From contig NZ_JASTLB010000004.1 in NCBI RefSeq assembly GCF_030499535.1, forward strand, positions 124,001-188,000: a stretch of DNA of 64,000 nucleotides, given 5' to 3'. This document shows positions 45,889 to 52,393 of the stretch, piece by piece (the first letter of the stretch is position 1; the number at the start of each line of letters is the position of its first letter). This stretch comes from Streptomyces sp. TG1A-8 (GTDB taxonomy: Bacteria > Actinomycetota > Actinomycetes > Streptomycetales > Streptomycetaceae). The notes beneath the pieces are model-generated. The model made no database searches and was not told the origin of the DNA. It saw only the letters and a program-made list of their open reading frames with translations. The position numbers and the translations under genes were made by a program.

Positions 45889-48800
45889 TCATATTCTCCC
45901 CACGGTGGAACGTACGGCCTTACCGTCTACGGTCCGAGGGCCGGGAACGGTTGCCGCGGTGAGGCTGAGACGGGTGTCCATGTCGAGGTTCACCTCACCG
46001 TACGGGCGTACATGGGACCAGAACAGAGGAGTCAAGCCGCGCCGGTCGGCGGGGGTGAGGAGGTCTGCCCACTCCTCTTCGCCGAGGATGTCCTGGAGCA
46101 TCAGGGTGTTCACGTAGACCAGAGCTGATTGCAGAATCCGCAGGCACAGCACGAACATCTCCTGCTCGTCGCGCCGGTTCGAGGCGATCTCCCCGCCCTT
46201 GCCGTAGGCGATCACGGAGTTAGCGCCGTTGGAGGACTCCATCACGTTCAGGCCCTCCTCGATCTCCCGCTGAAGGTCCCTCAGCCGCAGATAGCGGGCC
46301 ACGAAAATGGTCTTCTGAGCGCGGCCGACCTCCAGCATCGCCACGTAGGTGGGGTGGGAGGCGTTGCGGGTAAAGCGGCGCAGGATCGCCTCGGTGGACG
46401 CGGTGCGGGTCCGAATCGCGGTCGCATACTTGATCATCTGGTCGTACTGCTGGGCGATGAGTTCCCAGCGAATCGGACGGGTCAGCGCCGGGGTCAGCTG
46501 CGGGTAGGCATCCGGTTCGCCAGCCACCGGCCGGTACAGCTTCACCTTGTTGATCCGCTTGATTCGCGGCAGCAGGTCGAAGTTCAGCAGCCTTGTGATG
46601 CCGAACCCGATTTCCGACTGGCCATGGCTGTCTGTGTAGTTGGCTTCGACGTCCATGGTGGTGCCGTGCCGCATCGCGCCCTCGATCATCGCGGCGACTT
46701 CGGAAGCGGTGCAGTTGATCAGCTGGGAGTGGATCGCCAGGGACTTTTTCTCCACGTGCCAGTAGATGAGCACACCGCGTCCGCCGTAGCGCGAGTGCCA
46801 CTCGGTGAACAGGTTCTGGTCGTAGGCCCGCACGTGGGTGGAGTCGGAGGCGACCGCGGTCGATCCCTGTCCCCACAACTCGGTACTGCGGGCGGCGAAG
46901 GTGGCATTCGCGATCTCGATGGCGATCTGCCGGGCCGTCTCCGGGGTCAGATACCGGCGGCGCACGTAGCGTAGTTCGTCCTCGGTGTGACCATGCCCGC
47001 CGGAGGCAACGGCCTTGATCCCGGTGTTCGTACCATAGGCGTAGATCACCAGGAGCAGGCGCTCGGCCAGGACTTCCGCCGGGAGGGAGCCACCGCCGGA
47101 GACCGAGGTGACCGCGTCCAGGCAGCCGGTGCGCAGGACGGCTTCTTTCAGCATGTCGATGAGCGGCACGATGCCCCACCGGCGCTGTACCTCGCCCTTG
47201 ACCCGACGCAGGTTCTTCGGCTCGGGCTGGGCCTCGGCCGGAGTCAGCCGAATCGCCCCGGACTTCCGCTCAGCGATGTCCAGCCAGCCCAACTTCGGCA
47301 TCCGGTCGTTCAGCAAGCCCAGTTCGGTGGTCATCTGCTCGCGCAGCTCGTCGACGAAGACGGCAGGGTCCAGCGGCTTGCGCAGTTCGCGGTAGTTCTC
47401 CTCGCGCCGCTCGGCGAAGTCCTGGGGCAAATCCTCGTCCGGGTTGCGCCACTTGTCGGCGCCGACCACCCATATCTCCTTGCACTTGAGCTGGTCGCGC
47501 AGGGCCTGGAAGGCGACGACCTCGTAGACCATGCGCACCACTCGGCGCCGGCCGCGCTTGTCGGTGCGGTGGACGACCTCGGCCCAGTCTCCGCCCATCG
47601 CCTTGTGCACGGGCACGGTCTCGCCCAGCGGGTAGTAGGTGGTGTTGCCCGCCGCCGCGTACCGGGCCACCAGCGCCAGGGCCTCGATCACCGGCCGGTG
47701 GGTGTGGTTGGACGAGCGGAACTCCAGCACGTCCAGCAGCTTGATCAGCCCGCGCCGGTAGTGGTTGGTGTACGACGCCTTCAGTGTCGCCTGCACCGTG
47801 CGCCGGTAGACCGGGCCGCGGGTCTTGAACTCGTGTACCAGCTCCCGCAGCGTCTGCTCACCGCCGGACACCGCCGGGTAGACCACCTCACGGACCGTGC
47901 CCTCCGGCTTCCCGATCGACGCCTCGGCGAGCTTGAAGAGGATGTTCTCCTTGCCCGACACCTTCTTGAACGCGTTGACCAGCTGCTCGGTGACCTTTTT
48001 CTCCGCCCGCGCCCCGATCCGATGCACCGTGGATATCAGCAGCTCCACCAGCGTGTCCGTGATCTCCCGCTTCCGCTCGTGCAGCAGCGCGGCCAGCAGC
48101 GTCACCCGCAGCGGCAGCGGGTGCGTGCGCAGATGAGAGGGGGATTCCACCGCGGCTCGCGCCCGCCACCCGGCCACCACCTTCGGCGCGACGTCGGCGA
48201 ACAGGTCCGCCGGCAGCCCGACCGCCCTCACCGCGAGCAGCTTGTCGATCTCGGTGAGCATCGTCTCCAGGCTCACATTGCCCGGAGCCTCCTTGATCTT
48301 CCCCAGGACCGGCGGCCCGTCCTCGCCCTCACCGGGTGCGGCGTCGCCCTCCTGGTCGGCGCCGACGACCAGGGCCACGATCCGCTCCGTGCTCTCCACC
48401 GTCAGCCGCGCCGAGATCCTCGCCGTCAGCGTCTCCTCGGCCACTCGCAGCGCGGCGCCCACGATCCGGTCACACCGCCCCGGAGTCGGCGGCTCAATGC
48501 TCTCCGCCCGGCAGCGGGCCAGCAGTTCCACCCGCACCTGCTCCGGCCGCCGCTCCTCGCACGCGACATGCTCAGCGAGCCAGCCGGTCAGCTTGTCCGC
48601 ATCCGCCACGCTGCACTCGCGAAAGCCCAGGTGCCCGCGGATCTGCGCGCGGTGGTATTCGACCGTCCGGCCGCTCCACTCGTACGCGTCCAGCTCGGCG
48701 GCGGACACCTGTACCTGCCGAGCGACGAACTCCACCGCCTCGCCCGGCAACTCGAACCGGCCCCGGGGAAACCGGCCGTGCTGCGTGTAGAACTTCAGCA

Positions 48801-48915
48801 ACACGGCGAAGCCGAGTCGCGTCGCACCGCGCTTGCCGGACACGAGCCCTTGCTCGTCCTTCAACAGCGTCCAGTGCTCGACCAGGTCGTCCAGGTCCAA
48901 AGGGGTACGGGCCAC
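45889..48915 (-). CDS. tnpA: Tn3-family transposase
   Basis: The intact 1008-residue reading frame has the normal Tn3 length. An N-terminal DUF4158-type domain begins TPLDLDDLVEHWTLLKDEQG. The catalytic core includes GSTAVASDSTHVRAYDQNLF (first Asp), ANYTDSHGQSEIGFGITRLL (second Asp) and the conserved end NGANSVIAYGKGGEIASNRR with DEQEMFVLCLRILQSALVYV. It mediates replicative transposition. No resolvase gene or res site is found beside it. A terminal GGGGTCGTACAGCTG is visible on the right (ends 48952); no left match was found. The element is probably incomplete. Confidence 0.92.
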   Translation of the reverse strand: MARTPLDLDDLVEHWTLLKDEQGLVSGKRGATRLGFAVLLKFYTQHGRFPRGRFELPGEAVEFVARQVQVSAAELDAYEWSGRTVEYHRAQIRGHLGFRECSVADADKLTGWLAEHVACEERRPEQVRVELLARCRAESIEPPTPGRCDRIVGAALRVAEETLTARISARLTVESTERIVALVVGADQEGDAAPGEGEDGPPVLGKIKEAPGNVSLETMLTEIDKLLAVRAVGLPADLFADVAPKVVAGWRARAAVESPSHLRTHPLPLRVTLLAALLHERKREITDTLVELLISTVHRIGARAEKKVTEQLVNAFKKVSGKENILFKLAEASIGKPEGTVREVVYPAVSGGEQTLRELVHEFKTRGPVYRRTVQATLKASYTNHYRRGLIKLLDVLEFRSSNHTHRPVIEALALVARYAAAGNTTYYPLGETVPVHKAMGGDWAEVVHRTDKRGRRRVVRMVYEVVAFQALRDQLKCKEIWVVGADKWRNPDEDLPQDFAERREENYRELRKPLDPAVFVDELREQMTTELGLLNDRMPKLGWLDIAERKSGAIRLTPAEAQPEPKNLRRVKGEVQRRWGIVPLIDMLKEAVLRTGCLDAVTSVSGGGSLPAEVLAERLLLVIYAYGTNTGIKAVASGGHGHTEDELRYVRRRYLTPETARQIAIEIANATFAARSTELWGQGSTAVASDSTHVRAYDQNLFTEWHSRYGGRGVLIYWHVEKKSLAIHSQLINCTASEVAAMIEGAMRHGTTMDVEANYTDSHGQSEIGFGITRLLNFDLLPRIKRINKVKLYRPVAGEPDAYPQLTPALTRPIRWELIAQQYDQMIKYATAIRTRTASTEAILRRFTRNASHPTYVAMLEVGRAQKTIFVARYLRLRDLQREIEEGLNVMESSNGANSVIAYGKGGEIASNRRDEQEMFVLCLRILQSALVYVNTLMLQDILGEEEWADLLTPADRRGLTPLFWSHVRPYGEVNLDMDTRLSLTAATVPGPRTVDGKAVRSTVGRI

Positions 48916-48952
48916 GGTTGCCGATCATCCTCCCGCGCAGCTGTACGACCCC

Positions 48953-49446
48953 GGACTCACCCACACGGGTGACACCCTCGCAAGATCACCGCCGTTTGCG
49001 GCTGGTGACAGCGTTCTTACCGGCACCCCGTGTACGCGGACGTGATCCTCGATCGCGGCCTGCAAGCGGCTCGTATCCGGGCGGACTCGGACCCCGGCGG
49101 TGCGCACGTCGGTAGCCAGGTGCCGGCGGTAGCGCCGGTGTGCGGCCTTGTAGAGGTCGCGGCAGATCCGTACGGCGCCGCCCCGGCGGCCCAGAGTCGC
49201 CTGAACGAGATCGGCGATCTCGGTCTTCCCTGCACCCGGTTGCCCGGCGACCACCACGACGACCGAATGCGACTGGCGCACGGCTCCCCTCGTGGCCGCC
49301 GGAATGATCACCTGCTCCATCACCTGGCGGCTCTCCGACTCGGGCCACGCCTCCAGAAGGTCGCCTTCCCCCACCACTCCTCCATGCCGGTCGAGCCCAC
49401 ACGGCCGGGGACCGAGCGGAGCTGTTTGCCTTTTCAAGGTCAACAT
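48953..49446 (-). pseudogene. Zeta-toxin-like P-loop kinase, N-terminal fragment
   Basis: From ATG 49446 the frame contains VIIPAATRGAVRQSHSVVVV, the Walker A motif GQPGAGKTEIADLV, RDLYKAAHRRYRRHLATDVR and PDTSRLQAAIEDHVRVHG. This is the start of the zeta toxin family, which phosphorylates UDP-N-acetyl sugars and blocks peptidoglycan synthesis. The coherent sequence ends near 49010 and the frame then enters the Tn3-family end (48952). The active-site half is lost. No epsilon-type antitoxin is recognised. The gene is divergent from tap. Confidence 0.65.
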
Positions 49447-49453
49447 AGCAGGC

Positions 49454-49502
49454 GTACGCGAAAAGAACGAAGTTAGTACGGCAGTCGTACGCAATCGGTA
49501 CG
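49454..49502. promoter_or_regulatory. Five helically phased GTACG repeats in the tap promoter region
   Basis: GTACG occurs at 49454, 49476, 49487 and 49498, and GAACG at 49465, so five units start exactly every 11 bp. They lie between the divergent zeta-like fragment (ATG 49446) and tap (ATG 49538). One helical turn spacing on a promoter-sized region indicates cooperative binding of a protein to one DNA face. Candidate binders are Tap itself (it has a helix-turn-helix) or a lost omega-like regulator. Confidence 0.6.
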
Positions 49503-49537
49503 GTTTATGGGGTAGGATGTGGGTCAGGAGGTGTTCC

Positions 49538-51826
49538 ATGTCTGAGTTGTTCGATGCGGTCGACGCGCTGGTCGCGTCCCGCTCTCCGCTGCCGCCGGCG
49601 GAGGAGCGCAAGCGGCTGCGGGTAGCGCACGGCCTGACGCTGGACGAGGTCGCCGCCGCGCTGAAGGTGCGGCGGGCCACGGTGTCCGGCTGGGAGTCGG
49701 TGAAGAAGCCGACCGAGCCGCGCGGTCCGGAGCGTGAGGCGTACGCACGGCTGCTGAGGAAGCTCGCGGAGCTCTACCCCGCACCGGCAACGCCGCAGGA
49801 GCCGGCCGCGCCGGTTCCCGCCACGTTTACCGGCGCGCCCGACCCGGCAGGCGCAATGCCAGAGGTGCCGGACGCTTTGATCGACGAAGTGGTCGCAAAC
49901 CTTACGCCGCCCGCTCCCGCCCCGGCAGGCGATATGCCAGCGGTTCCGGACGATGCCATTGACCAGGCGTTCCCTGTATGGCCTGCCGGGGCGTCGCGGC
50001 GCCCGGCGAACACCACCAGGAGCTCGTCGACGTCGCGCCGTCCGGGCGTGAAGAAGGCGGCCCCGGCTGGTACTCCGGCGGGCAACGCCGATCCGCGGTT
50101 CGAGAACGGTCCGCTGGCGGTCGTCGACGCCGACGCCGACGGGAAGGTGGTGGCGTACTGCGTCGGTGGCCTGGTCCTGGACGTGCCCGCCAAGTCCCTG
50201 CCGTCCCTGGTGGACTGGACCCTCAAGGAGGCGAAGCTCGGGCAGCCGAAGCTGTCCGGCCCCGGAAGGCCGGCCGACCCGCTGCTCGTGCTCACCGAGG
50301 CCGCGTGCGAGCGCTACGGCCTCCCGGCCGCCCTCACCGAGGAGGAGCGGCTCGCCGGGCGCATCCCGGAGGGCCACAAGGTCATCAAGCAGCTGACCCG
50401 CGCCGACTGGAAGCTCACGAAGCGCGGCTTCGGGCCGTGGGCGCGGATCTACCGCCCGGCCAAGGGCTCGGACCGCCAGTGCGTGCAGTTGTGCATCCCG
50501 TCCTGGCACGCACTCGACACCCGTCACTGGGGCCACGCCGCGCAGCTTCCGCCGGCGGAACTCGCTCGCGTGCTGGGCGTGTACGCCTCGAGGGTGATGA
50601 CGCCGCGCGGCTCCACCGCCGTCACCGGCCTGGAGCTGATGACCGCGCTGCACCCGCCGACCCACGCCGTGCGGGACGAGGCCACCGGTGAGCTACGGCA
50701 GGCCCCCGACAAGACTCCCGGGTCCCTGGGCGTGAAGCCGGTGGACTGCGCGCCGTGCGAGGCCCCCGACGGCCACCCGCTGCTGAAGGACCTGCCCCGC
50801 TTCCACGTGCGCGGCCCCGGCGAGAAGCTGTTCGAGGAGTCCTACGACTGGGCGCGGCCGATGACCGATGCCGAGTGCACCCTGCGCTACCTGGTCGGCC
50901 TGGATGTGAACCTCGCTTTCGGCGCCGGCGCCAACGGCCTGACCGTCGGCCTGGGGGAGCCCACGCAGGTGAAGAACCCGGTGTTCGACCCGAAGCTGCC
51001 CGGCTCCTGGCTGGTCGACCTGTCCCACGTGGACCTCTCAAGGGTGAAGGTCGGCAAGGAGTGGGTGGAGCTGGACGGCAGCCTGCTGCCGAGCCCGTTC
51101 ACGCCGAAGGGCGACCGCCCGGAGGGCCCGGCCTGGTATGCGACGCCGACCGTCGCGTACGCGGTGGAGCTCGGCTACGAGGTGCGCCCGCTGGAGGCAT
51201 GGGTGCGCTATGACAACGGCCGCTACCTGGACGGCTGGTACACCCGGCTGCGCGACGCCTACCTCGCCACGATGGCCGACCTCGGCGTGCACGCGGACCT
51301 GGAGCCGGCCGACTTCCTCGCGGCGATGGACGGCTACAAGGAGCGCGATCCCGAGCTGGCGATCGTCGCCACCGCGATCAAGGCGACGGTGAAGGGTGGC
51401 ATCGGCAAGCTGCGCGAGCGGCCCCGTGGTGAGGGTTGGCGGTCGGGCGAGCGGTGGCGGGCCCTGGAGCGGCCGACCTGGCGCCCGGATATCCGGGCGG
51501 CGGTCATCTCCCGCACCCGCACCAACCTCCACAGGAAGATCGTCAAGCATGCGGCGTTCACCGGCCAGTACCCGGTCGCCGTCAACCACGACTGCGTCGT
51601 CTACGCCTCGAACGGGCCCTCGCCGCTGGACTTCCTGCCCTACCGGGACGGCAAGCCGCTGCCCGGCGGGTTCAAGCTCGGCATCAACCCCGGCTTGGTC
51701 AAGCACGAGGGCACCCAGACCGTCCTGTGGGGCGAGGAGGTCCGCGAGCGGTTCGACGCTCCGGAGCTCAACCTCGCCCGGTACATCAAGGACGGCACCG
51801 TCATCGACACCGACAACGGGGAGTAG
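49538..51826 (+). CDS. tap: Telomere-associated protein Tap
   Basis: ATG 49538 after CAGGAGGTGTTCC opens 762 residues. Residues ~18-60 form an XRE-type helix-turn-helix (KRLRVAHGLTLDEVAAALKV, RRATVSGWESVKKP), followed by a Pro/Ala-rich linker (~85-170) and a long conserved domain (~190-762) containing LTRADWKLTKRGFGPWARIY, RYLVGLDVNLAFGAGANGL and SRTRTNLHRKIVKHAAFTG. Known Streptomyces Tap proteins (~740 aa) bind the 3' overhang of linear ends and recruit the terminal protein. The tpg gene follows 9 nt downstream, confirming the call. All parts look intact. Confidence 0.93.
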   Translation: MSELFDAVDALVASRSPLPPAEERKRLRVAHGLTLDEVAAALKVRRATVSGWESVKKPTEPRGPEREAYARLLRKLAELYPAPATPQEPAAPVPATFTGAPDPAGAMPEVPDALIDEVVANLTPPAPAPAGDMPAVPDDAIDQAFPVWPAGASRRPANTTRSSSTSRRPGVKKAAPAGTPAGNADPRFENGPLAVVDADADGKVVAYCVGGLVLDVPAKSLPSLVDWTLKEAKLGQPKLSGPGRPADPLLVLTEAACERYGLPAALTEEERLAGRIPEGHKVIKQLTRADWKLTKRGFGPWARIYRPAKGSDRQCVQLCIPSWHALDTRHWGHAAQLPPAELARVLGVYASRVMTPRGSTAVTGLELMTALHPPTHAVRDEATGELRQAPDKTPGSLGVKPVDCAPCEAPDGHPLLKDLPRFHVRGPGEKLFEESYDWARPMTDAECTLRYLVGLDVNLAFGAGANGLTVGLGEPTQVKNPVFDPKLPGSWLVDLSHVDLSRVKVGKEWVELDGSLLPSPFTPKGDRPEGPAWYATPTVAYAVELGYEVRPLEAWVRYDNGRYLDGWYTRLRDAYLATMADLGVHADLEPADFLAAMDGYKERDPELAIVATAIKATVKGGIGKLRERPRGEGWRSGERWRALERPTWRPDIRAAVISRTRTNLHRKIVKHAAFTGQYPVAVNHDCVVYASNGPSPLDFLPYRDGKPLPGGFKLGINPGLVKHEGTQTVLWGEEVRERFDAPELNLARYIKDGTVIDTDNGE

Positions 51827-51835
51827 GAGAAGGCC

Positions 51836-52393
51836 ATGGCCTTGTTCGGGGACGGCCTGGAGGCCGCGGTGCAGAAGGCGTTCACCCGCCCGGCACCCAA
51901 GAGCGCGGGCGCGCAGATGCGGTACCTGGTCAAACAGATGAAGGGCACCAAGGCGGTCGCCCAGATGCTGCGGATCTCCCAGCGCACCGTCGAGCGGTAC
52001 GTGAAGGACCAGATCAAAAAGCCCCGCCCTGACCTTGCCGCGCGCCTGGAGCGCGAGGTGAAGAAGCGGTGGCAGCCGCAGATCAGAGCCAAGGCCCGGC
52101 AGAAGGCGGCCACCACCGGCGGCATCGTCATCGACACCCGCGCCCGCCTCGGCTACACCGCGCCGATCGGGACGACGGACCAGGACCGCATCCGGCACCT
52201 CACCGTCGCCCTGCCCCCGATCTACGCCGCGCGCCTCTTCGATGCCCAGAAGGCTGGCGCCAGCGACGCCCGACTCCAGCAGATCGCCGCCGAAGCGCTC
52301 AAGGAGGTGTACTTCCAGGACAACGGCCGCCGCGCCGGCTCCCTGGAAGAGGTCCGGTTCACGGACATCGAGCACCTCGAGTTCGAGCTGTAG
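51836..52393 (+). CDS. tpg: Terminal protein Tpg of linear replicons
   Basis: ATG 51836 after GGAGAAGGCC opens 185 residues, the normal Tpg length (~184). An N-terminal helix-turn-helix (KGTKAVAQMLRISQRTVERY, residues 36-55) is followed by a basic segment and the region YTAPIGTTDQDRIRHLTVAL. Thr114 lies in GTTDQ; a Thr at this position is reported as the DNA-linked residue in Streptomyces Tpg. Tpg caps the 5' ends and primes end patching. Coupled to tap, it shows that the replicon is, or derives from, a linear molecule. Confidence 0.94.
   Translation: MALFGDGLEAAVQKAFTRPAPKSAGAQMRYLVKQMKGTKAVAQMLRISQRTVERYVKDQIKKPRPDLAARLEREVKKRWQPQIRAKARQKAATTGGIVIDTRARLGYTAPIGTTDQDRIRHLTVALPPIYAARLFDAQKAGASDARLQQIAAEALKEVYFQDNGRRAGSLEEVRFTDIEHLEFEL

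Follow-up and report, generated by a model that had tools for sequence, protein, structure and literature searches.

A phased array of 11-bp direct repeats upstream of the Streptomyces telomere genes tap and tpg as a putative operator of Tap

The window analyzed here, a 64,000-nucleotide stretch of Streptomyces sp. TG1A-8, codes on its forward strand for the two proteins of the telomere system. The gene tap (49538..51826) specifies the telomere-associated protein (NF047542, 1101 bits), which bears an N-terminal XRE-type helix-turn-helix (HTH) domain (PF01381 at residues 25-54) with the recognition helix RRATVSGWE at residues 45-53; among proteins of solved structure, none matches this N-terminus in sequence at an E-value of 0.1. 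It is followed by tpg (51836..52393), coding for the terminal protein (NF047541, 296 bits). The available portions of PMC4513846 and PMC3572947 describe tap and tpg as an operon and Tap as an HTH protein that binds telomere palindromes II and III. This operon keeps Streptomyces chromosomes and plasmids linear, and no description of its control was found in the literature searched: in keeping with the original prediction, which knew of no such operator, none came up for tap-tpg at the level of titles and abstract openings, a range outside which the 2017 and 2003 Tap papers fall. In word searches of the portions available, "repress" is absent from PMC4513846 and PMC3572947, in which "promoter" occurs zero times and once, respectively, and "promoter" is likewise absent from PMC6662830 and PMC8743542.

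The reverse strand carries, at 48925..49380, a zeta-toxin family gene reduced to its N-terminal part (positions 10-96 of the 199 in profile PF06414) and truncated beside a Tn3-family transposase (45889-48915). Its frame starts near 49380, judging from a comparison by eye of its N-terminus with those at loci L155 and L158, and the gap to tap is hence about 157 bp; the 91 bp that the original prediction gave for this gap is the length of the span which that prediction had delimited.

In this gap, on the forward strand at 49454..49508, are five 11-bp units that are kept in relatives. Their cores are GTACG, starting at 49454, 49476, 49487 and 49498, and GAACG, starting at 49465, and direct reading confirms that they follow each other in steps of exactly 11 bp, as had been predicted. 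The count of phased 5-mers in shuffled sequence, proposed along with that prediction, rules out a chance origin: among 20,000 dinucleotide shuffles of the 130-bp region preceding tap, not one contained at least three consecutive exact units, and in a separate set of 20,000 not one contained at least five units with one mismatch.

Downstream of the array, TAGGAT (49513..49518, forward strand) is the likely -10 element of tap, with the proximal unit beginning 15 bp ahead of it, and AGGAGGTG (49526..49533, forward strand), before the ATG, is the likely ribosome-binding site of the gene, with a similar sequence seen by eye in most relatives. This geometry recurs: in a table of 75 loci compiled without L028, L059, L060, L081 and L085, the start of the proximal unit is separated from the -10 by 15 bp in 43 and by 13 bp in 14, with another distance in 13 and no -10 match in five. 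Four units are present in 42 of the 75 and five units in 25. Counted as 7 bp, the proximal repeat ends 8 bp before TAGGAT in the window and the -10 in the 43 loci, and 2 bp closer in the 14. A -35-like hexamer (at least 4/6 matches) is found in only 2 of 79 tap promoters, as against 12.9% of shuffles. The array thus occupies the -35 and spacer positions of the predicted tap promoter. Overlapping the predicted promoter of a gene that itself encodes an XRE-type protein, it lies where an XRE operator would be expected. Together, 313 units from 73 loci give the consensus GTACGSNANNC, with mostly C or G directly after GTACG and A and C favored at positions 8 and 11. While CGTACG is itself palindromic, the unit in its wider extent is directional, as are the words that characterize the other classes described below.

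On the other side of the array, 6 bp from its distal unit, TATGTT (49442..49447, reverse strand) could conceivably be the -10 element of the divergent zeta gene. Six of 103 sequences have TCAACATAGCA upstream of tap, and each of these six has a zeta match. A divergent zeta-toxin family gene with a match starting less than 200 bp from tap is present in nine of the 103 (the window, L016, L017, L042, L044, L051, L155, L158 and L164), and a zeta match anywhere in the stretch in 14. As the array sits between the two genes, it may serve both.

The original prediction proposed a search for 11-bp phased pentamers upstream of related tap genes, against comparable random regions; they prove to be conserved in the former and rare in the latter. 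Scanning one genome from each species yielded 166 Tap relatives, and the best 80 of them were retained; the sample comprises Streptomyces and close kin. At least three consecutive phased units (at most one mismatch) are present in 71 of 80 tap upstream regions (the window and 79 relatives with an intact 5' end), or in 67 of 76 once near-copies are removed. Such runs occur in 7 of 6729 control windows tiled across the same loci (mostly coding sequence) and in 8 of 3800 dinucleotide-shuffled sequences. The pooled autocorrelation of the tap upstream regions peaks at lags of 11, 22 and 33. Arrays read by omega regulators of omega-epsilon-zeta systems are tandem heptads with a 7-bp period; here the period is 11 bp and the autocorrelation at lag 7 is a mere 0.024, so the hint at an omega-type regulator in the original prediction is not borne out.

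When 986,284 bases (the window plus 80 loci) were scanned with a weight matrix, GTACG-type arrays came up exclusively at tap, in 75 of the 81 sources; as the matrix was trained on these same arrays and is blind to those of other classes, the figure speaks for specificity rather than being an independent count. The six sources without such an array are L028, four loci of another HTH class (L059, L060, L081 and L085) and L082, a variant that has P47 and carries two GTACG. L086, whose match lacks the Tap N-terminus, stands outside the 80-region count and has an array in the weight-matrix scan. The counts also leave aside L120-L125, read by eye, and L168-L170, which lack a usable tap start, so that the tap genes of Rhodococcus and Microbacterium lie outside the sample. 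The array precedes tap on chromosome-size contigs as well (L032 and L076). Three exact phased GTACG occur in 204 of 392 same-genus genomes, a figure that pools matches at tap with those elsewhere.

Within the genome of the window, a four-unit search allowing at most three mismatches also matched C4:350575 and C1:3663281, and a three-unit search two further places on C1. The array-like stretch at C4:350575-350612 is near a transposase-like frame and a pair of small genes that is, by eye, toxin-antitoxin-like. The only full-length tap found in the assembly is on the 518-kb contig C4, which also has a partial copy (C4:245286-246470), and on the 7.1-Mb contig there is just a weak match to the HTH region. 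By analogy with S. rochei, for which the available part of PMC6662830 reports dependence of the chromosome on a plasmid, the chromosome of this strain may depend on its plasmid. Over the 420 bases read, the two ends of C4 (L175 and L176) match each other as inverted copies, apart from small differences; by eye, the contig ends of C1 and C4 do not have the look of finished telomeres. We also considered telomeres as a second site of the array words: the end of the pSV2 record has TGCGCGA at 25 and a single GTACG at 199, and those of pFRL2 and pSGRIFU3 have neither word, so we claim no link.

The repeat word follows the class of the Tap HTH. With 22 plasmid loci added, the word goes with Tap residue 47, in the recognition helix: at least two GTACG are found in 73 of 78 loci with A47 and both loci with P47 (75/80), and in none of the 18 with E47 or the four with Q47 (0/22). 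Other words are repeated in the latter classes: at least two copies of TGCG are present in 12, of RCGATT in eight and of GTGYG in five of the E47 loci, with two GTTAGAT in one, and GGNTAA occurs at least twice in all four Q47 loci. TGCG is not confined to E47, occurring twice in 17 of the 78 A47 loci. The A47 exceptions are L032, L040, L054 and L171, with fewer than two GTACG, and L028, where no array is present and tap shares its frame with an upstream ORF that, by eye, resembles an acetyltransferase (984 codons together). By eye, no array was seen in L124, which belongs to a further HTH class. Spacing is looser in other classes, with lags 11 and 12 equal in 10 loci with RREAVGNWE-like helices and, by eye, 11-13 bp elsewhere. 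Phased repeats are retained in several HTH classes and the word differs with the helix. As a separate observation, repeats resembling GTTAACGCC precede tap in L160 and L161, and VNAVNA runs occur in the linker of the L160 Tap.

Six natural chimeras (L059, L060, L081, L085, L152 and L172) combine a Tap body 76-89% identical to that of the window with an E47 HTH that is 80-93% identical to the HTH of L156 and 50-60% identical to that of the window. None of the six has two GTACG upstream; the replacing repeats are weak in L152. Both types coexist in one strain, S. viridochromogenes NRRL 3413 (L011 and L060). L171, a further candidate for an HTH swap when only residues 1-80 were aligned, was rejected, its body being an ordinary Tap.

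Distance-based tests agree with this pattern. In partial Mantel tests on 98 of 101 loci (the 113-residue frame of L076 is outside the alignments), operator distance correlates with HTH distance when the Tap body is held (r 0.546; 0 of 2000 permutations as high), and not with the body when the HTH is held (r 0.07; 268 of 2000). Within the HTH, the recognition helix has no advantage over its flanks: the operator correlates with the recognition helix given its flanks at r 0.337 and with the flanks given the helix at r 0.366, or at r 0.334 and r 0.267, respectively, with the body also held. On the body tree, HTH class changes six times, four of them forced by supported branches. The operator goes in the same direction as HTH class in an average of 3.9 of four independent pairs and never in the opposite one, a number of pairs too small for significance (p 0.125). 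The operator trait itself changes 11 times, in part through decay while the HTH stays the same; consequently, HTH class is the same in about half (3.6) of seven operator-differing pairs.

Since the array is kept in relatives and changes with the DNA-reading helix of Tap, we posit that Tap probably controls its own genes, with the array as a putative operator to which Tap itself binds. The original proposal of Tap as reader thereby gains support from the covariation of word and HTH, with no independent signal from Tpg; its binding to the array and regulation of tap-tpg are what we infer from it. Under this proposal, each 11-bp unit would hold one HTH domain, one per helical turn, such that four or five Tap molecules, probably binding cooperatively, would be lined up along a single face of the DNA, over the -35 and spacer. 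As a protein placed there would block RNA polymerase, we lean modestly toward repression over activation, and the output of tap-tpg would then be matched to free Tap; the absence of a -35 fits an activator equally well. If Tap reads the array, then an HTH of the L156 type should prefer a TGCGCGATTC-type array. With a short conserved array and natural swaps of HTH and operator at hand, the hypothesis is directly testable. An extension, which we regard as distinctly unlikely, is that the array is a telomere-load sensor that also restrains the divergent zeta gene on zeta plasmids: Tap drawn to unfinished 3' overhangs would leave the operator, and tap-tpg would rise until the ends are patched. In that case, losing either the plasmid or Tap would open the ends and at the same time release the toxin.

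The main rival to Tap as reader, in our view unlikely, is a host activator of the SARP or OmpR-fold kind that replaces the missing -35. According to the available part of PMC10936776, SARP targets consist of direct repeats at distances of 11 or 22 bp, and 8 bp separate the 3' repeat from the -10. This geometry is matched by the 11-bp period and, if the proximal repeat is counted as 7 bp, by the 8 bp between it and TAGGAT, and the lack of a -35-like hexamer fits as well. However, the repeat word shifts with the HTH class of Tap even inside one strain, which argues against a host reader; moreover, no GTACG-type array is found away from tap in 986 kb, and there are mostly four or five units as opposed to the two repeats of the AfsR box (PMC10936776, in the same part). 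Binding by Tpg, or by a Tap-Tpg complex via Tpg, would be suggested by the HTH also predicted in Tpg (available part of PMC3572947) and by the correlation of operator and Tpg distances, r 0.365 when uncorrected for the Tap HTH. In the 76 loci used, from 78 of 102 in which Tpg was recognized (L156 being among those missed), this vanishes with the Tap HTH held (r 0.027; r 0.010 for Tpg residues 21-62), whereas the operator retains r 0.603 with the Tap HTH given Tpg. With, in addition, an apparently low DNA-binding specificity of Tpg in vitro, as given in that part of PMC3572947, we reject Tpg as the reader, a reading that we hold to be very improbable.

The covariation could also arise from hitch-hiking: the operator adjoins the HTH codons and both can travel together as a cassette of promoter and 5' end, in which case the covariation would not point to any particular reader. 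In line with this, the operator is predicted equally well from the HTH flanks and from the recognition helix, but phasing persists across classes while the words follow the helix, for which linkage alone is insufficient, and we give this account a very low probability too. Finally, tandem repeats at the helical period are typical of plasmid iterons, and the stretch at C4:350575-350612, on the same contig and without an evident gene, scores nearly as high as the tap array (36.3 vs 37.6), as might be expected of a replication or partition element that precedes tap by accident. Against this, which we consider quite improbable, stand the same pre-tap position on chromosome-size contigs, the preferred distance to the -10 and the absence of such arrays elsewhere in the 81 sources.

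Several known systems resemble the tap array, or its proposed role, in part. XRE operators of the lambda and 434 type are usually palindromes bound by dimers; these autoregulators share with the proposed role of Tap an HTH protein acting on its own promoter, whereas the tap array consists of tandem direct repeats, and its matched HTH-operator pairs are available for studying how XRE domains read such repeats. Autoregulated iteron replication proteins likewise control their own gene through repeated sites, as proposed for Tap; unlike those systems, the tap array lies in a promoter and also occurs on contigs of chromosome size, and Tap has its role at telomeres. The SARP boxes, exemplified by AfsR at afsS in the available part of PMC10936776, share with the array the 11-bp direct repeats, the heptamer-counted gap of 8 bp to the -10 and a poor or absent -35. 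They differ from it in that the tap word is GTACG, or others following the Tap HTH, in mostly four to five units, and in their reader, an OmpR-type domain as against the XRE HTH of the candidate reader Tap. The sites of BldC, too, are direct repeats, bound by cooperative multimers according to the available part of PMC5859096; BldC, in contrast, is a MerR-like protein that acts on developmental genes.
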